From Schizochytrium sp. TIO01 (lineage: Eukaryota > Sar > Bigyra > Thraustochytrida > Thraustochytriidae): 64,000 nt of DNA. A program made the translations under genes and the position numbers. Shown in pieces: positions 4,404 through 60,965 of this stretch (its first letter is position 1; every line of letters begins with the position of its first letter). The DNA lies in assembly GCA_004764695.1 (NCBI GenBank), contig SMSO01000014.1:2679148-2743147 (forward strand), given 5' to 3'. Below the pieces are notes generated by a model. It worked only from the letters and a program-made list of their open reading frames with translations. It ran no database searches and was not told where the DNA came from.

Positions 4404-6734
4404 TCAATTGTTTGCATCCAGAGACTCGATAATCGCTTGTACTGCAGAACCAAGGCTACAGGCCTTGTCAAGCGTAGCTGGGCTCAAAGTCATTAAATCG
4501 GAGGCTACGGCGACCTTGGGAATTTTCGTATCAACTGAATCAGTCTCGTCCGCTTGTGTAACAAGAGGAGGGATCTTCGGGTACCGCTGGCTAAAGTGTG
4601 TTAACACAGTATAATCCACGCCCATACGTTTACCGATGGAAATGGCTTCGCTCAAAGTTGAGTGCCGCTTAGCACGTGCTTGATCAACTTTTTCATCCTC
4701 GAAGGTTGCTTCATGAATAAGCATATGTGCACCCTTGCCGACCATTACCAATCGGTCACATGGCTGGGTATCTCCAGAGTAAACAAGCTTAGTTCCACTT
4801 GAAAGATTTACCACAACTCCATATGCATCATAACAATGATAAACCAGTACAGATGTGAGGGTGTTTACCGATGGAAGAATATAGGAGATATCGATTTCAT
4901 GGCCAGATGGTCTTCCCCCGAGTTTGTGATCCAAAGCAATAAATTCATACTCTGGCATTGGGCCCTTGAGCGCATAAAGTGACTTTTCCAAAAAGTCAGC
5001 TAAGTCGGACGGACCCACAACAAGCAACTTTGGAGATTTTGCGCGAGCGCGCCATGAGAGCACATTGAGGAGTCCTAAGTGGTGATCAGCGTGCATGTGA
5101 GTAATATAGACGCACTTCAAATCAGATTCCACAAGCTGGTGTGCACCCTTCTGGCCAAGAAGACGCGCGAGCTGGGCACACGTGCCTTCACCGGCATCCC
5201 AGAGCATCGATCCAGAATTTGTTCGGAGAAGAATCGAGCTCACATTGCGATATTTAGACGGAATTGCGCTTCCAGTCCCCAGAAATGTTAAATTCCAATC
5301 ATTCTCGTTTTTGGGCAACTGCACTTGCGGATTTAACACTAAAGGATCTACAGGTACTTTGACTGGATATGCAGTAGGTCTCGCCGTAAACGACTCCCCG
5401 TAGCCCCGACGAGACTCAGGATGGACAACACATGCAGAACCAACGACGCCAATCTTACATTTTTGTACAAGCTCGGCGGGGATTTCGTCAAGAGGAGAAC
5501 CTCCATTGTTAATGACTTCAGGCTCGAAACTAGAATAATCGATATTAAAGCAATCTTCATCAACTTTGCTTTGTAACTCAGATTGTATGTATGCACTTGA
5601 TCTGAACACGGGGCCATTTTGGGGGTCAACCCTTTCGCTAAACAAAATATGCTCGATGTTTGGTGCAGTAAATTTCTGCATCCACAGTTGATAATCCTTT
5701 GTGGAAAAAACCTCCGAGCTTGCAAAATGGATGACAAATCGACTCCCCGGGAGTGCGTAGAAGGCTTCAAATGCTGGTTCCATTTTCAGTGCTGGGATGA
5801 ATGATTCATCTGGGCATTCCACAATAAGAATGTGCTGTTCAGGTTCTGCCTGAGCCATGCAGTCCTCAGGCTTAATCACTCTTCCATCAGCAAGGGTAAT
5901 CGCTTCTCCTTTTGTGAGGCGCCCAAAGCTGGGGCCCTTGGGCACACCGAGCTCAATGGCCTTGGCAGGCAGAAATTTTCCACGTTTTGCTGGTGCCGAG
6001 AGGATATACGAGCAGCATACATCCTCCTGGTCAACGTGAGCAATATCTTCGTCGACTTCAGCTTCGTGGCCTTGGCGTGTAGAGCAAACCTTGAACTTTC
6101 CAAACTTGTACGGTACCGCAAAAGGTTTATTTTCTGTAGTCTTCGCTTCATCTTCGGCGCGAGCCTGACCATCCACGTCAGCGTTGTCGTTTTCTTCGGT
6201 TGCTTGTTCCTCAACCTTCCTTCGTTTCATTTCGGGCTCTTTGGTGTCTTCCTTAGTCTCGTCTTCACATGTTGCCAACGGGTGACGGCGAATTGCAACA
6301 GGGCGTACTTTCAGCCCGCTCTTCAGCTCAACCTCTGAGGCAGGGTTGGCAACCTCGTGAACTGTGATACATGACTTGTTGCGTTTATAGACGTGGTGAT
6401 GAGCATGCACAAGTTTACCGAGGCCTGTAGGACCATAAACGTTCATAAGAAATGTGGTGTCTGCTGCATCCATATTTTCGAGCCGCATCGACGAGACGCC
6501 TGCTAGTGTGAGCAGCATGCCACCAATGCCAAGAGTGGCATCACTGTGCAGCCTTGTGAGCAATATATTGTCCATGTTGGAGATTCGCATTCTGTTCTCT
6601 CCGCACATACGTTGACATCCTTCTGGCACATTCACCAGAACTCGTTCTTGGCCATGCGTCACAACAAGCGACGGCGCACGATGTCCATCCGCCAGGACGG
6701 TGCTCACGGCCTCCACATAGAACTCTGAAGACAT
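4404..6734 (-). CDS. ELAC2: tRNase Z, long form (ELAC2-type 3' tRNA endonuclease)
   Basis: 776 residues. Cleaves the 3' trailer from tRNA precursors, in nucleus and/or mitochondria. The long form is an internal duplication of the metallo-beta-lactamase fold: the N-terminal half has lost its metal ligands, and the C-terminal half is catalytic. The catalytic half starts at about residue 481 with FLGTGSAIPSKYRN (the PxKxRN motif) and carries the metal-binding HMHADHH at about residues 545-551. Downstream are further expected elements: YSGDTQPCD and HEATFED, then a C-terminal HFSQRYP. A Lys/Glu-rich insert (about residues 155-205, containing MKRRK) separates parts of the N-terminal half and may hold a nuclear signal. 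The start is the ATG at 6732-6734; the frame continues 25 codons upstream but with no ATG, so a mitochondrial form from an upstream AUG is not supported. Divergent with the NYN/KH gene. Confidence 0.95.
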   Translation of the reverse strand: MSSEFYVEAVSTVLADGHRAPSLVVTHGQERVLVNVPEGCQRMCGENRMRISNMDNILLTRLHSDATLGIGGMLLTLAGVSSMRLENMDAADTTFLMNVYGPTGLGKLVHAHHHVYKRNKSCITVHEVANPASEVELKSGLKVRPVAIRRHPLATCEDETKEDTKEPEMKRRKVEEQATEENDNADVDGQARAEDEAKTTENKPFAVPYKFGKFKVCSTRQGHEAEVDEDIAHVDQEDVCCSYILSAPAKRGKFLPAKAIELGVPKGPSFGRLTKGEAITLADGRVIKPEDCMAQAEPEQHILIVECPDESFIPALKMEPAFEAFYALPGSRFVIHFASSEVFSTKDYQLWMQKFTAPNIEHILFSERVDPQNGPVFRSSAYIQSELQSKVDEDCFNIDYSSFEPEVINNGGSPLDEIPAELVQKCKIGVVGSACVVHPESRRGYGESFTARPTAYPVKVPVDPLVLNPQVQLPKNENDWNLTFLGTGSAIPSKYRNVSSILLRTNSGSMLWDAGEGTCAQLARLLGQKGAHQLVESDLKCVYITHMHADHHLGLLNVLSWRARAKSPKLLVVGPSDLADFLEKSLYALKGPMPEYEFIALDHKLGGRPSGHEIDISYILPSVNTLTSVLVYHCYDAYGVVVNLSSGTKLVYSGDTQPCDRLVMVGKGAHMLIHEATFEDEKVDQARAKRHSTLSEAISIGKRMGVDYTVLTHFSQRYPKIPPLVTQADETDSVDTKIPKVAVASDLMTLSPATLDKACSLGSAVQAIIESLDANN

Positions 6735-7452
6735 CGTCAGAAGAACGCCCCTAGATGCTAGGACACCCCAGCGAGCTCCACACAAGACAATTTTACACAC
6801 AGGTATCAATCAGCTCTGCAGACAACTAATTGGTTTGAACTTTTCCCCTGCGATTGAAGGTTCGAGCTGATCACTTGGTTGGACTTCCGCCATTCACTCC
6901 TATCAATTCCTTTATGGAAAACAATTGCCTAAAAATAAAGAGAAAATATGTACTTTGGAAATTCGTACCAACCATAACTTTTATAACCACGCTTCCATAA
7001 ATAACACAAAACCTTTTGTCCTCTGCGAAGCTATGTCAAGGACTCAAGTATATCATGATCTGCGCATCATTGGCGAGAAATCTGTGAATATCCTTCGATG
7101 CTGCAATTCAAGAAAGGTTTGGTTTTAAAATCCATTCTTCATTCGAATGAAGTTATGCATGTTTCTTCGTTTGTAATAATAAAAACTGTACTACGTATGA
7201 TTATTAACTGCCCCCCAAAGAAAATAAAATAAAATAAAAATGACAATAACTCACTCTACCATTGTAATAATAAGATAACTTAGTAAATCAGTTCACAATC
7301 GTTATGGCAGCTAAGTACCTAGGTATTCGAAAGCTGAGCAGGAATCTACAGAAGCTTTGCCTCGAAGCGATTGTCATTCTCTATTGCTAGGAGGGCTTCC
7401 ACTGGCCCTGGGAAGACGTTGACGAAGTAAAGGTCAGCATTTGACAATATCG
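6735..7452. promoter_or_regulatory. divergent intergenic region between tRNase Z (-) and NYN/KH gene (+)
   Basis: 718 bases, AT-rich, with an A-rich segment (AAAATAAAAT type) around 7218-7240. Presumably contains both promoters. No other gene is visible. Confidence 0.4.
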
Positions 7453-9103
7453 ATGCTTGCTGGTCCAGCGGCGCAAGCTGGAGCGCCGCTCTCGATCGTT
7501 CTGGACGCTGCAAACCTTTGTTGGGCCTTCGTCAAAGCGCAGCCAGGATGGACTCACGTCAACTCTGGTGGCGGAATCGTAAGTGCGGATAATTACGCGA
7601 GTCTTGTGCAAATACAATGCAATTAGGATTTCTATTCATTGGGTTGGGCAAGAAGGTCACTGACGAGATCGCTTTTTATTTCTGCGGTTTGCAATGGCTT
7701 CAACGAATGGCTAACTTCTGCATGATGCCATAAGTGCGACTAAATGCATGCGACAATACTCAATTTAACCATATGTGAAATCATCAATACAAATTGTTGC
7801 TCCACTACTCACAACTCATCACAACCTACTGCACGAAATGACATGTTCAAAATACGAAATGGTATATGTCATTCCAAATTTGCTGTCGCACTTTTGGACT
7901 GCTTTGTGGGGGGGTCATGTGTATACAAATATATGTAATCTGCATGCAGAGACCTCCAGTGTCTGGTATGATTCTTTGTATTGAGTTTTTTAGGAGCTAT
8001 GGAGTAACACCTGTTGCAATATGTCCTACTTGGTGGCTCCGAACAAAGGATCAGGGAATATGGGGCAGCACCGCCTGGGAGGAGCAGGATTTTAGGAGGC
8101 TTATGGCCCTACAAGAGGTAAGTTGAACCCATACCATAAGAGTGCAGTCTTTTGGCAAACTTATGAAGAGTAATCACACACTTACATCCGAATGCATGCT
8201 TTGTTTATTATTTGCTCTGAGTAGGAGGGACTACTGTTCGCATCTCCTTCTGGAGAACATGATGACCTATATATTCTTGATTACTGCTACCGTACAGACG
8301 GATTCCTTGTCTCAAATGATAAATATCGAGATCACCGTCGCGAACGAAACCTCGACCCTGACTGGATTGATGCGCGTCGCATTGGCTTTATGTTTGTGAG
8401 AGATACGTTTCTGCCAAACCCAGATCATATTATCCGCTTGGAGGAGTTTGTGCGTCAGACAGGCAAGGTTGTAGGATTCAGTACCTCTTCCCAACGTCAT
8501 TATGATCTTCTTCCACCTCCACCTCCAACAACAGATTTAGCAGCAATGAGAAGCGAATTTCGAACACAACAACAGCAGCAACACCAGCAGCAACACATGA
8601 TGCATTCTGCATCGGAGGACACGGTAATGGCTGGTTCAACTTTGTCTCAATTTGCGGGGCCCGTATCAACTCATAATAACTACGCGAATGTAGGGTCTTC
8701 GGGAGAGCCTTGTGATATGGTTGACTTTCCAAAGCCCGGCCTCGGTTTTTTAATTGGGAAGAAAGGGGCACGTATCCATGAAATCCGAGAAGAATCTGGT
8801 GCATCTGTTGAAATCCAAGATGCAGTGACAGATGCTTCTGGGAATATTCGTGTAGTCATTAAAGGAAGTGATGAAGCTCGCGACCGGGCTCGCCAGGCTG
8901 TCTTGGAAATGCGAGATGTTGCATATCGAAAGTTGGGCATGGGAGGAAGTCGTACCCCTCCTCCCACAAATTCCTTTGTTACAGGTTCATCATCCGAAAT
9001 GGATTCCGCCAACACAATTCGTCTCGCAAAGTCAGACCCCGTGGGTATGGGTTATAACAATGTGGGAGGGTTTGTTGAAGGTGCAAACTCAGATTTGCAA
9101 TGT

Positions 9104-9139
<36 letters not shown>

Positions 9140-9187
9140 GATTATCATATGATGGATGACCATCATGATATTGATGACGATTTGTAG
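7453..9187 (+). CDS. NYN (Zc3h12a/regnase-type) ribonuclease with C-terminal KH domain; three exons
   Basis: Exons 7453-7578, 7950-8117 and 8225-9187 join in phase 0 to 418 residues. Introns (371 and 107 bases) begin GTAAGT and end in AG. The joined frame gives an NYN/PIN-like RNase domain: IVLDAANLCW (Asp18), FFRSYGVTPVAICPTWW, GEHDDLYIL (Asp111, Asp112) and LVSNDKYRDH (Asp130). These match the four metal-binding aspartates of regnase-type enzymes. A linker with Pro and Gln runs follows, then one KH domain (about residues 260-330) with the RNA-contacting loop IGKKG. Near the C-terminus is a 12-13 residue Gln tract and an acidic His/Asp tail. Likely role: sequence-guided endoribonuclease acting on mRNA or structured RNA. 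In vertebrate KHNYN/N4BP1 the KH-like module precedes NYN; here the order is reversed. Convergent with the thiolase-like gene, 195 bases apart. Confidence 0.88.
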
Positions 9188-9382
9188 TAATGAATGTAGT
9201 TCACATTGGTGCTAAGGCACTGGTATTCTGCACATCTGGCAGAGCATGTTTTTTTAAAGAAATTAAATCATAATACCTTCTATTCCATAATCTGTGACCG
9301 ATAAGCAAGAATGAAAGACTTGGGACGCGTATAGGAAAGGGTATGAACAAACATATATAAATTGTGGTTACTGGCCTATGCT

Positions 9383-55328: not shown

Positions 55329-57056
55329 ATGGTGTCTCCCAGAGAAATTGCAACCTACATGAAGCCCACTTTGGGCGACCTGAACGGTATGGTCCAGCTG
55401 TTCTTCGATAACGGCGGCACCATTCTCGCTCTCATGTCCACGACCTACGCCGTGGTTTTTGCTCCGGCCACTGATGCACAGGCCGCCGAGGCCAACGACA
55501 TTATCTACCAGCGTATCATTCCTGGCCTTGGTGTCTCTGTGCTCATTGGTGGTCTCTTCTATGCCATCCAGGGTGCCATGCTCTCTGTCAAGGAGGAACG
55601 CTTGGCCACAGCTCTCCCGTACGGTATCAACACCCCGGGTTCCTTTGCCGTTCTCTTTGGCATTATCGGCCCTGTCTTCTGGGCTAACAGTGCCGGCTGT
55701 AGTGATGATGCATGTGTGATCAATGCCATGGAAGAAGCATGGCGTGCAGGTATCACCACCAACTTTCTTGTTGGTGTGATCTCTGTCGTGCTTGGCTTCT
55801 TTGGACCTGCTGTCCGCAAATTCACACCTCCAGTTGCTCTTCTTACAGCTCTTGCCGGAATTGGTATGGCCTTTCTCACTATTGGCCAGCTCACCAACAT
55901 TTATGCAGAGCCTATTGCTGGAATAATTCCTCTCTTTATGGTTTTCATCCTCTACTTTGGTGATGTGTCCATTGGTGCATTCCCCAAGTCCTTGGCCATC
56001 ATTATCGTTGGTACAATTCTCGGCTGGGCTGACTCTGTTCACTCCGGTGCAGACATTCGTGATGCGGCTGATAACCTCAAATGGTGGGGTATTCAAACCG
56101 GATTTAGCGCTCTTGGTGACTGGAGTTCTGTTGGAGATTCCATTGGCACTGTCTTCCCCGTTGCCTTTGCTGCTGCCGCTGGTACCCTTATGAACGTCTA
56201 CTCTGCTGAACAGGCTGGTGACTCGTACGGTGTTACGCTGACCATGGTCTCTGACGGTATCGGAACTATCATTGCCGCTCTCTTCGGTTGCCCGTTCTCC
56301 ACCTCTGTTTACATCGGCCACCCGGCTTACAAGCGCATGAATGCTGGCACCATGTACTCTGTCTTCAACGGAGTTGTTCTCTTCTTCTTTTCACTCTGTG
56401 GTATGTTCGCTATGATCTCTGCTATTGTCCCCATGCCTGCTGTTTCCCCCATCCTCGTCTTTGTCGGTCTCACCATTACCGCCGAGGCAATTGTTGCAGC
56501 TCGCCCTCATGAGTACCCGGCGTTTGCTCTTGGTATCATTCCCTCTATTGTTGACTGGGCCAACCAGGGTGGTGCTTACACCCCCGGCACTGGTGTTGGT
56601 GGTGACAACCCATCCTCATACTACGGCTACGTCGCCATGTGTGATGGCCCTCTTCTCGTCGCTCTCGTGACTTGTGCTATTGCTACTTACACTTGCAACC
56701 GTCAATTTGTGTACGCTGCCGCCTGGTCTCTTGCAACTACGATTCTTGCTGCATTCGGCTTTATTCATCAGCCTTCAGTACGCGTCAAGAACTATTCCGA
56801 GCCTGGATCAGAGTACTGCTACAGTGAGTCCGTTGTTATGGATGTTGAGCGCTTCGAGAGCTTCTCGGACTGTGCCACGGCCTACTTCCCGACTCTGCCC
56901 TGGCGTTTCCTCGTCTCTTACCTCATGCTCACCATCGTCTTCCTTGGCCTTGTCTTCCTCCAGCGCGCTGGCAAGGTCGCCGAGAGCATCCCTATGGATG
57001 AGGATGACGTTCCCAAGCGTGTTGCTGAGAACGAACCTGAGCACCTCGCTGCTTAA
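55329..57056 (+). CDS. NCS2/AzgA-type nucleobase (xanthine/uracil/adenine-guanine-hypoxanthine) permease
   Basis: 575 residues from the ATG at 55329; the eight codons upstream contain no ATG. About 12-14 hydrophobic membrane segments. AzgA-type landmarks: an early FFDNGGTILALMSTTYAV, a GINTPGSFAVLFG segment on the substrate half-helix, FGDVSIGAFPKSLAI in the middle, and a GCPFSTSVYIGHPAYKRMNAGT block, equivalent to the conserved helix-8/10 region. A Cys-bearing extracellular loop (AGCSDDACV) may hold a disulphide. The tail is short and acidic. Likely proton-coupled uptake of purines or pyrimidines at the plasma membrane. Codon use is visibly richer in C-ending codons than in neighbouring genes, suggesting high expression. 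The exact substrate cannot be read from sequence. Confidence 0.88.
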   Translation: MVSPREIATYMKPTLGDLNGMVQLFFDNGGTILALMSTTYAVVFAPATDAQAAEANDIIYQRIIPGLGVSVLIGGLFYAIQGAMLSVKEERLATALPYGINTPGSFAVLFGIIGPVFWANSAGCSDDACVINAMEEAWRAGITTNFLVGVISVVLGFFGPAVRKFTPPVALLTALAGIGMAFLTIGQLTNIYAEPIAGIIPLFMVFILYFGDVSIGAFPKSLAIIIVGTILGWADSVHSGADIRDAADNLKWWGIQTGFSALGDWSSVGDSIGTVFPVAFAAAAGTLMNVYSAEQAGDSYGVTLTMVSDGIGTIIAALFGCPFSTSVYIGHPAYKRMNAGTMYSVFNGVVLFFFSLCGMFAMISAIVPMPAVSPILVFVGLTITAEAIVAARPHEYPAFALGIIPSIVDWANQGGAYTPGTGVGGDNPSSYYGYVAMCDGPLLVALVTCAIATYTCNRQFVYAAAWSLATTILAAFGFIHQPSVRVKNYSEPGSEYCYSESVVMDVERFESFSDCATAYFPTLPWRFLVSYLMLTIVFLGLVFLQRAGKVAESIPMDEDDVPKRVAENEPEHLAA

Positions 57057-58052: not shown

Positions 58053-60965
58053 ATGCTCGCTTTTGTGCGATGGAAGTGTCAATGTTGTGGATTTGCGGGC
58101 AACGCCGGTAGCAAGGAGCTATGCGGCAAGTGCGGCGCCGAGCGAGGCGCCAAAGCCGGGAGTGGGCCTGGACAAACGCCATCGTCGTCTGAGCCCTCTG
58201 CATCGGGAACGGCAGTTAGTTCTGCAGCAACAGCAGCAGTGATACCGCCGTCAAAGCGAGCTAGGCTTGCAGACGAGCGCGATGACTTTTCCACGAGATA
58301 CCGTATGGTGAGCCTCCCGCAACCGTGGCTTGCGGCGGCCAAAGGTTCTGTAATCTTTCGAGCGTATGAAACTGTGGAGACAACCACCGGAATGACCAAA
58401 GCTAGCGGCCAACAGCCTGTGGCGGGCTTTGATTTCGATGGATGCCTGTGCGTATTTGCTCGTGGCGCAAACACTAGCAACATCATGCAAGCGAACAATA
58501 TTGAGAAGCATCTTGTCTTTAGTCATATTAAGGACGTGCTGGTGGAACTCCATAAACTTGGCTACCGCATCGTCATTTTCTCAAATGAATCACTTGTACG
58601 ATTCAAAAACCCAGACCCAATCCGCGAGGCACTCTTACGAAAACTAGCTCGTTTAGATGCCTTCCTTGAGTATGTTAAGATACCCATGGAAGTATACTTG
58701 GCAACGCACAATGACGACTACCGCAAACCATCCACAGCGGACTTTGAAAAGGGCGGCTATGGCGGTATTGCAATGTGGACTTTCATGAAATCGGACCCAC
58801 TGAAACTTGGCAAGTCAGCACCAGAAGCCTCAAACCTTGGATTCTATGTCGGTGACGCAGCAGGTCGGCCAGGAGATATTAGTGATGGAGATCGCCGTTT
58901 CGCATTGAAGATAGGGTTGCCTTTTCACACTCCAGAAGACTTCTTCTTGCGAGACGGTGCAGCTATGCGACTTACAGGGGTCCAGCCATTTCAGTCCTCA
59001 ATGACCTCAGCAAATCTAACCCAAAACGCGAGTGTGCCACCATTTTCAGGAGATAGCTCTCAAGTGGACCTTGCCTGGCAGCAACTCATCTCCAAGGCTT
59101 CGCGGCCGCTGCTGCTTGTACTCTCTGGGCTTCCAGGCTCAGGTAAATCTTCACTTGGACAGCGTCTTTGCGAAGCAGTTGGTGGTGCGACCAAAGCAGC
59201 TCGATTCAGCCAAGATGTTCTCAAGAGTCGTCCTAAGGTAGAACAGGCCTGTGCACAAGCCCTCAATGAGGGGAAAAAACTTGTCATTGTAGATCGAACT
59301 AACCTCGTGCCTGGGCAGAGGGAATCGTGGTTACATCTTGCAAAGGACCACAATGCTGATGCTGCGCTTGTATTTCTTGAAGTGCATCCATTGGAGTGCG
59401 TTCAGAGATGCCAACAGCGTAAGAATCACGAAGGCAACTTTCCTACAGCCCGAGATCAAATACTCAATGTTGTTCAGCGATTTGCATCCAACTTAGAACT
59501 TCCTCAGACAAAGGAGGGATTTGGGGCATGCTCTGTGCTTCGACAACCTCTAAGCACCGATATCGCAGCATGGGAATTAGCTCATAATTCAGACCTTGCA
59601 GCACTTGTGTCTGGCGCAAAAAATGACCACAGTAACGCTTCTTCCCCGGTGCAGCGTCCGGCAGTTTTGGCCTTCTCATCCATTTCCACGGGGGAGTTCA
59701 AATTTGATATTACCAAGGCTGTAGGTGTTATGCTCCGAACAATCTCGAGATGCTCACAATCATGGAACCTCGGCCCCAAAACCCTTCGCCTCGTGGAGGC
59801 GCCAGGGAGCCCTGTGCTTAAGGCCTTGCAGGAAGATGAGAAACTTGCTGCACAAGTACGCCTCATTCCAGCACTGGAGATAGTTGATGGGGACATTACA
59901 TCTCAAGTAAATGTGAAGGCATTAGCCGTCGGTTCTATTAAGCGTCTAACAAGGCCTGGGGAAAATAAGTCCAACGTCAAAATTCATGCTGCAATCAATC
60001 AAACAAAACCCAATCAACTTGTTGAATTGCTTCAAGGTCGCACTATTGCTGAAGTAGCAAATCCTGTAGCATTAGAGCTTCCTGAGGACCACCCATTGCG
60101 AAAGTCAACCTCAGCTACACACGTTTTGCTAACCCTTGGACCGAACATGAATTCTGCGAAAGATGATTCGTTAGCCGATCAACCACAATATGCTGAGGAG
60201 CTTCTTGAACGTTGCTATTTGCAGTTATTTGAAACATTCAAGACACTTGTGGCCTCTAGCCCAACCCATGAGTCTGCTACGCAGCTATCTGAGGTTTCCC
60301 AAAGCAAAAAGATTACATCTTTCCCGTCTAAAATAGATGTTCCCGCGGGGCCAGTCCCTCCCGCCTCCCGGTCTTGGAAGCATGCACTTAAAGACTATAT
60401 CCACAAGCCAGTTCCCACGAGCCACCTGCCATACATTTATTATCAAGACTCAGAATATACTGTCATCTACGATGCATTTCCCAAAGCTCGAGTTCACTTA
60501 TTAATTTTGCCGCTGGCTACTTCCGGCCTGGCTGAAGTGGATCAGGTTGGAGAACTTGAATCTAAGCACATACCTGCAGTAGAAAAGCTTGCCGGCTTTG
60601 CTCAACAACTTGCCTCTCATGTATATTCCGTTCTGCAAACTGTCAATGCAGATGCGGCCCCTGTGCATATTGGATTCCATGCTGTCCCATCTCTGCACCA
60701 CCTTCATGTACACGTGATATCCCAGGATTTTGATAGCCCGTGTCTCAAGATTAAGAAGCACTGGAATTCCTTCACACAACCTCAGTTCTTCCTCCCGGTA
60801 GATTTAGTATTACAGACCTTGAAAACGAAAGGTCATGATGGCGTTTCTCAACTGCTTCAGCATAGTGAAGAGGCCCTCAAGGCCCCTCTGGCATGCCACC
60901 GTTGTAAGAAATCCATGTCAAATCTCCAGATGCTCAAAGCACATATTGCTACCCCTTGTGAATAA
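58053..60965 (+). CDS. DNA end-processing fusion: RanBP2 zinc finger - PNKP phosphatase - P-loop kinase - macro-like - aprataxin HIT - zinc finger
   Basis: 970 residues, one exon. Seen in order: a RanBP2-type zinc finger (W7, C9, C12, C24, C27); a HAD-type PNKP 3'-phosphatase with GFDFDGC (Asp127, Asp129), IVIFSNES and FYVGDAAGRPGD; a P-loop kinase with Walker A GLPGSGKSS (359-367), SQDVLKS and VDRTNL; a region (about 545-740) with LAFSSISTGEFKFD, IVDGDIT and GPNMN that matches the macro-domain segment of plant aprataxin-like proteins; an aprataxin HIT domain with HxHxH at His883/885/887 in HHLHVHV; and a terminal C-x2-C-x12-H-x4-C finger. PNKP converts 3'-phosphate/5'-OH ends to 3'-OH/5'-phosphate; aprataxin removes 5'-AMP from abortive ligation. 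Together they would restore ligatable ends in nuclear single- and double-strand break repair. The phosphatase motif has Cys where DxDGT usually has Thr, and the macro part lacks the Gly-rich ligand loop. Confidence 0.93.
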   Translation: MLAFVRWKCQCCGFAGNAGSKELCGKCGAERGAKAGSGPGQTPSSSEPSASGTAVSSAATAAVIPPSKRARLADERDDFSTRYRMVSLPQPWLAAAKGSVIFRAYETVETTTGMTKASGQQPVAGFDFDGCLCVFARGANTSNIMQANNIEKHLVFSHIKDVLVELHKLGYRIVIFSNESLVRFKNPDPIREALLRKLARLDAFLEYVKIPMEVYLATHNDDYRKPSTADFEKGGYGGIAMWTFMKSDPLKLGKSAPEASNLGFYVGDAAGRPGDISDGDRRFALKIGLPFHTPEDFFLRDGAAMRLTGVQPFQSSMTSANLTQNASVPPFSGDSSQVDLAWQQLISKASRPLLLVLSGLPGSGKSSLGQRLCEAVGGATKAARFSQDVLKSRPKVEQACAQALNEGKKLVIVDRTNLVPGQRESWLHLAKDHNADAALVFLEVHPLECVQRCQQRKNHEGNFPTARDQILNVVQRFASNLELPQTKEGFGACSVLRQPLSTDIAAWELAHNSDLAALVSGAKNDHSNASSPVQRPAVLAFSSISTGEFKFDITKAVGVMLRTISRCSQSWNLGPKTLRLVEAPGSPVLKALQEDEKLAAQVRLIPALEIVDGDITSQVNVKALAVGSIKRLTRPGENKSNVKIHAAINQTKPNQLVELLQGRTIAEVANPVALELPEDHPLRKSTSATHVLLTLGPNMNSAKDDSLADQPQYAEELLERCYLQLFETFKTLVASSPTHESATQLSEVSQSKKITSFPSKIDVPAGPVPPASRSWKHALKDYIHKPVPTSHLPYIYYQDSEYTVIYDAFPKARVHLLILPLATSGLAEVDQVGELESKHIPAVEKLAGFAQQLASHVYSVLQTVNADAAPVHIGFHAVPSLHHLHVHVISQDFDSPCLKIKKHWNSFTQPQFFLPVDLVLQTLKTKGHDGVSQLLQHSEEALKAPLACHRCKKSMSNLQMLKAHIATPCE

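Follow-up and report, generated by a model that had tools for sequence, protein, structure and literature searches.

We have analysed a window of 64,000 nucleotides (the whole stretch of DNA studied here: contig SMSO01000014.1, positions 2,679,148 to 2,743,147 of the forward strand) from the thraustochytrid Schizochytrium sp. TIO01. At 58053-60965 on the + strand it carries a single-exon frame of 970 amino acids plus stop, which joins an N-terminal zinc-finger-like motif, a DNA 3'-phosphatase, a P-loop polynucleotide kinase, a permuted macrodomain, an aprataxin-type HIT domain and a C-terminal C2HC/E finger. With a probability of about 0.8, the product is a nuclear DNA-end-processing protein in which a zinc-finger 3'-phosphatase stands in front of a kinase-macro-aprataxin unit of the plant type. 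Judged by its sequence, it reads like the plant 3'-phosphatase ZDP and the plant aprataxin-like protein set end to end. Each part is known; the arrangement is new, real and well supported.

The frame opens with an ATG at 58053, ends with a stop at 60963-60965 and contains no internal stops. This ATG is separated from the stop upstream of it by 23 in-frame codons, of which none reads ATG; the next in-frame methionine is residue 85, and a start there would drop the N-terminal finger. For the codon-usage score, nine further long frames from the window, 6594 codons in all, served as the training set. By this score, the reading frame was the best one in 15 of the 16 segments, among them the three linkers (ca. 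50-70 residues each) that separate phosphatase, kinase, macrodomain and HIT domain, with narrow margins in segments 1-50, 421-500 and 851-910. The coding signal thus runs through the enzyme modules and their linkers, which speaks against two genes in this part; the score says less about the N-terminal finger. One full-length copy is present in the assembly. An initial annotation, made from the sequence letters, had described one uninterrupted frame holding all modules with their key residues, and this observation stands on the frame, the Pfam scores and the residues: there are 970 codons with no stop between the kinase and HIT parts, and the domain search proposed as a check found both the phosphatase and the HIT modules over their Pfam cut-offs.

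The 3'-phosphatase (residues 123-298; 58419-58946, +) matches the Pfam family PNK3P with 97.2 bits against a curated cut-off of 22 (E = 1.1e-27) and, in a search of the PDB, solved PNKP with E = 2.7e-14. D127 and D129, placed by the GFDFDG motif (125-130) exactly where they had been annotated, are accompanied by S177, K225 and D268. We take the catalytic roles of these residues, as of those of the kinase and HIT domains described below, to be those of their counterparts in known relatives.

At the other end of the protein, residues 795-903 (60435-60761, +) form an aprataxin-type HIT domain, which exceeds the Pfam cut-offs for DcpS_C (residues 795-903, 4.2e-17) and HIT (1.2e-9) and contains K811, H815, P820, H876, H883, H885, H887 and D892, with W904 just beyond. 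The aprataxin C-terminal zinc finger follows at residues 911-970 (60783-60962, +; zf-C2HE over cut-off at 911-967, 5e-10), with C948, C951, H964 and then C969 or E970 as its putative ligands. Together, domain and finger match solved aprataxin, an entry we take to be the human protein, with E = 1.1e-27, and HVISQDFDSPCL and KKHWNSF are common to both. K811, P820, D892 and W904 presumably correspond to human K197, P206, D267 and W279, which are sites of disease mutations. The succession by which aprataxins are recognised, HxHxH and then a C2HE/C2HC finger, is present, and the aprataxin HIT domain with HxHxH at 883-887 had been correctly annotated. Genome profile searches, which here and below ran exon by exon with only the best candidates scored, found a single place for zf-C2HE, and the protein therefore appears to be the sole aprataxin of the genome.

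The kinase occupies residues 354-485 (59112-59507, +). AAA_33 exceeds its Pfam cut-off over residues 354-470 (E = 2.1e-15), as do KTI12 and Zeta_toxin, as P-loop cousins, across the same stretch. The Walker A sequence GLPGSGKS was found at 359-366, in agreement with the annotated position, with K365/S366, D388 and the DRTN motif (414-417) in place. The initial annotation had listed the kinase behind a PNKP phosphatase; the scores set it apart from PNKP. Searched alone, it reached 58 and 55 bits (6.9e-15 for the former) with two small solved kinases, 9drz and 9d8a, the latter entered as a Rhizopus azygosporus kinase, versus 23 bits (5.1e-4) with PNKP, while the PNKP equivalog model TIGR01663 gave 100.2 bits against a cut-off of 502.8. 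By these sequence comparisons the kinase is not of the PNKP type. From its neighbouring modules, we infer that it would be the kinase of plant aprataxin-like proteins.

Between kinase and HIT domain lies the region annotated as macro-like, whose identity could be both upheld and refined. Pfam Macro stays below its cut-off (14.8 versus 22 bits), and PDB chain 5lw0 matches residues 538-733 (59664-60251, +) collinearly with E = 3.7e-12. We regard 5lw0, a code that appears once in PMC5087659, as the permuted macrodomain from rice that is described there. Because the match is collinear with 5lw0, the module has the permuted order, that of the APL type. MacroD structures align with it in swapped order (module 181-202 to chain 120-141 and module 5-45 to chain 142-182), each alignment being far below significance, and 5lw6, the solved Dictyostelium APL macrodomain, matches weakly (E = 0.2). 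Such a circularly permuted macrodomain is common to Dictyostelium APL and plants; the rice structure was solved with ADP-ribose, the Dictyostelium domain was shown to bind poly(ADP-ribose), and plant proteins are reported to combine it with polynucleotide kinase and aprataxin domains (PMC5087659). The ADP-ribose-pocket residues F113 and D175 of that paper fit F549 and D614 of the module, given a constant offset of 65, counted by hand, between paper and chain numbering.

The N-terminal motif (residues 5-31; 58065-58145, +) has the form C9-x2-C12-x11-C24-x2-C27 with W7 in front and makes a plausible small zinc finger. Its PDB matches are weak: ArnA with E = 0.016, and the finger of RNF31, the nearest of the RanBP2/NZF type, with E = 0.2. 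It is not among the 42 RanBP matches of the genome (PF00641, E <= 10), and Pfam scans found no zf-PARP in the protein, which has this one C4 motif only. Of the two Cys-type fingers initially annotated, the C-terminal one is thus secured by zf-C2HE; the N-terminal one is plausible as a motif, and its RanBP2 identity was not confirmed. The suggestion that a RanBP2 finger replaces the FHA recruitment domain is therefore a guess. Further on, residues 65-71 (58245-58265, +) form a basic stretch, PPSKRAR, which we take to be a nuclear-signal-like motif.

The last three enzyme and binding modules follow one another in the order kinase, macrodomain, aprataxin, presumably also their order in the plant aprataxin-like protein. 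Animal PNKP has, like the protein described here, a phosphatase followed by a kinase in one chain, and the phosphatases are similar; the Schizochytrium protein differs in having no FHA domain, a kinase of another subgroup and a score short of the PNKP equivalog cut-off. With aprataxin it shares the HIT domain and C-terminal finger, whereas human APTX carries an N-terminal FHA domain in place of phosphatase, kinase and macrodomain. Rice Q10MW4, a plant aprataxin-like protein, unites kinase, permuted APL macrodomain and aprataxin in one chain, as here (PMC5087659); in the Schizochytrium protein, a 3'-phosphatase and the C4 motif precede the kinase. Plant ZDP likewise combines zinc fingers with a 3'-phosphatase and lacks FHA, but it has three PARP-like fingers and no kinase domain (PMC10573277), whereas here a single short C4 motif stands in front and kinase, macrodomain and HIT domain follow the phosphatase. 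Both papers lend support to the initial annotation's remark that plant aprataxin-like proteins join kinase, macrodomain and HIT domain, ZDP being the separate 3'-phosphatase (PMC5087659, PMC10573277). Dictyostelium APL has the same family of permuted macrodomain together with FHA and PBZ domains; an end-repair enzyme does not figure in its description in PMC5087659.

Several observations weigh against the interpretation given at the outset, or against parts of it. The NCBI phosphatase model TIGR01664, which is stricter, was narrowly missed, with 97.6 versus 107.65 bits. PNK3P has two places in the genome, the end-repair chain and a lone 254-residue frame, a stand-alone DNA 3'-phosphatase (L001:1417-2181:-, C13 of this genome; PNK3P 1.1e-34); with this second candidate, the chain may not be the principal 3'-phosphatase. 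Of the initially proposed union of all common 'dirty end' activities in one polypeptide, the presence of the modules in one chain stands, exclusivity for the 3' end is in doubt, and the activities themselves are predicted from residues. At the N-terminus, segment 51-118, the linker behind the finger, ties with an antisense frame in codon score, and no Pfam family was found for residues 1-100 at E <= 5, a threshold that is narrower than stated since HMMER filters remove most matches above E of about 0.1. XRCC1_N and XRCC4 were not found in the genome by searches that lacked a working control; for this reason, and because plant XRCC1 is described as having no N-terminal domain (PMC10573277), we do not claim their absence. 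In the macrodomain, the glycine-rich loop 1, KPGGGGVN in 5lw0, is replaced by RPGENKSNV, so that ADP-ribose binding, as far as it can be predicted, may be weak or lost. Lastly, the kinase could prefer an RNA substrate, as the one relative that it has in a protein search of the same genome ends a 1166-residue RNA-ligase frame and the two kinases have the identical two best solved relatives (9drz and 9d8a).

These observations bear on the alternatives that we have considered. One is that the macrodomain, its loop 1 altered, no longer binds ADP-ribose, recruitment then depending solely on partner proteins or on the N-terminal finger. The genome encodes a second permuted APL-type macrodomain, which shares a frame of 662 amino acids (L008:1807-3795:-, C30 of this genome) with an aldo/keto reductase; it has PSENLDNV at loop 1, a similar change, and this fits the possibility. 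We hold it to be a serious one, though not the likelier outcome, as F549, D614 and loop 2 (SISTG) are kept and the macro segments have codon scores of 0.23-0.24, as high as those of most other segments. We also considered, after PMC5725667, that the macrodomain might remove ADP-ribose from modified DNA ends; the changed loop 1 and the lack of hydrolase activity reported for APL (PMC5087659) lead us to disfavour this.

The phosphatase-kinase part might instead be an ordinary animal-type PNKP fused to aprataxin with a macrodomain inserted. The order of the two domains is that of PNKP, TIGR01663 aligns over residues 118-492, and the PDB search with the whole protein aligns PNKP over both domains (118-435). 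We nevertheless consider such an origin improbable: the equivalog score is about one-fifth of the cut-off, the kinase alone prefers both small kinases over PNKP, no FHA domain is seen in the chain, and the combination of kinase, macrodomain and aprataxin is a published plant one (PMC5087659). Slightly less probable still is a protein acting mainly on RNA ends. The related kinase shares its frame with a 2H phosphoesterase and two stretches of RNA ligase, which would suit such a function, as would the shared best relatives of the two kinases. In the end-repair chain, however, the kinase keeps company with a 3'-phosphatase of the PNKP type and with a HIT domain and C2HE finger of the aprataxin type, modules that in characterised systems act on DNA ends, and Pfam searches found neither a ligase nor a 2H module in this chain. 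That the frame is an artefact, a misassembly or two adjoining genes taken for a single one, is very hard to credit. It is true that the protein rests on one assembly, but the frame is single and open with coding signal through the linkers, the combination of the last three modules is known from plants, and the assembly holds just one full-length copy. A DNA-end-processing protein with plant-type kinase, macrodomain and aprataxin behind a zinc-finger 3'-phosphatase thus remains the reading that we prefer.

In keeping with this reading, PARP domains were found in the genome as 12 matches in 11 frames, and there are three ATP-dependent DNA ligases. Pfam scans found no FHA domain in the chain, and none of the 26 FHA matches of the genome falls in either PNK3P frame; hence, no animal-type PNKP with FHA is visible. 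Two adjoining PARP1-like frames (L035:1533-4961:- and 6431-9301:-, C34 of this genome) are very similar by eye, the first with zf-PARP, PADR1, WGR and PARP domains. An SNM1/Artemis-type DRMBL domain, a RanBP-like finger whose match (E = 0.0013) stays below cut-off, and a DNA ligase share one frame of 1306 amino acids (L033:1164-5081:-, C33 of this genome); its layout is like that of Arabidopsis Ligase 6, described as plant specific in PMC3198793.

A genome scan with AAA_33, in which 21 of 58 candidates were scored, gave at least 11 matches. The seven that were identified comprise the end-repair chain, two RNA-ligase chains, two 6PF2K/phosphatase enzymes, one adenylate kinase and one CDC48-like ATPase. 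The first RNA-ligase chain, possibly an RNA counterpart of the end-repair chain, is the 1166-residue frame mentioned above (L009:696-4196:+, C24 of this genome); besides its kinase it holds a 2H phosphoesterase and two stretches of RNA ligase, together with weak TPR and 5'-nucleotidase matches. The second (L038:1468-4452:-, C4 of this genome; 995 amino acids) is tRNA-ligase-like, its T4-type RNA ligase domain being joined to an AAA_33 kinase at the C-terminus.

In the literature on these families, consulted mostly as open-access papers and with eukaryotic sequence collections outside the search, we found no fusion of a zinc-finger phosphatase with kinase, macrodomain and aprataxin. Given this coverage, related species may well carry the same chain without its having been noted. 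Among prokaryotic genomes, 21 stretches fitted a search pattern and none of the 21 was confirmed, in a scan that detects close relatives only. Of two scans of IMG/VR for viral relatives, the first confirmed none and the second gave locus L010 alone, a match of 36 residues (E = 8e-5) within an 1800-residue frame that by eye encodes an unrelated structural-type protein; we regard it as a chance match. Elsewhere in the genome, a polyunsaturated fatty acid synthase exceeded its cut-off once neighbouring matches were summed, which would be in keeping with a labyrinthulomycete. In the window, the neighbouring frame at 55329-57056 (+) encodes 575 amino acids with many hydrophobic stretches; it has no Pfam match at E <= 0.001 and looks membrane-permease-like by eye.

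From the modules we infer the activities, the ADP-ribose recruitment, the localisation and any hand-over between sites as follows. A break would be marked by poly(ADP-ribose) made by the PARPs of the genome, and the macrodomain, perhaps aided by the N-terminal finger, would bring the protein to the site. The phosphatase would convert a 3'-phosphate to 3'-OH and the kinase a 5'-OH to 5'-phosphate, while the HIT domain and its finger would take off the AMP that a failed ligation leaves on a 5' end. Polymerase and ligase could then use the end. One may speculate further that this chain of six modules is an old, complete DNA-end repair enzyme whose two halves became separate as ZDP and the kinase-macro-aprataxin protein of plants, with ADP-ribose sensing, 3'-dephosphorylation, 5'-phosphorylation and AMP removal physically coupled so that both sides of a nick are readied; we think this unlikely.

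Animals distribute these activities over separate proteins that XRCC1 and XRCC4 bring together, and neurological disease follows when PNKP or aprataxin is lost. A natural fusion with all of them in a single chain would allow the cooperation of its sites to be measured directly. It links ZDP and the plant aprataxin-like protein, two plant proteins that have been studied apart, and its central macrodomain may tie the cleaning of DNA ends to PARP signalling.

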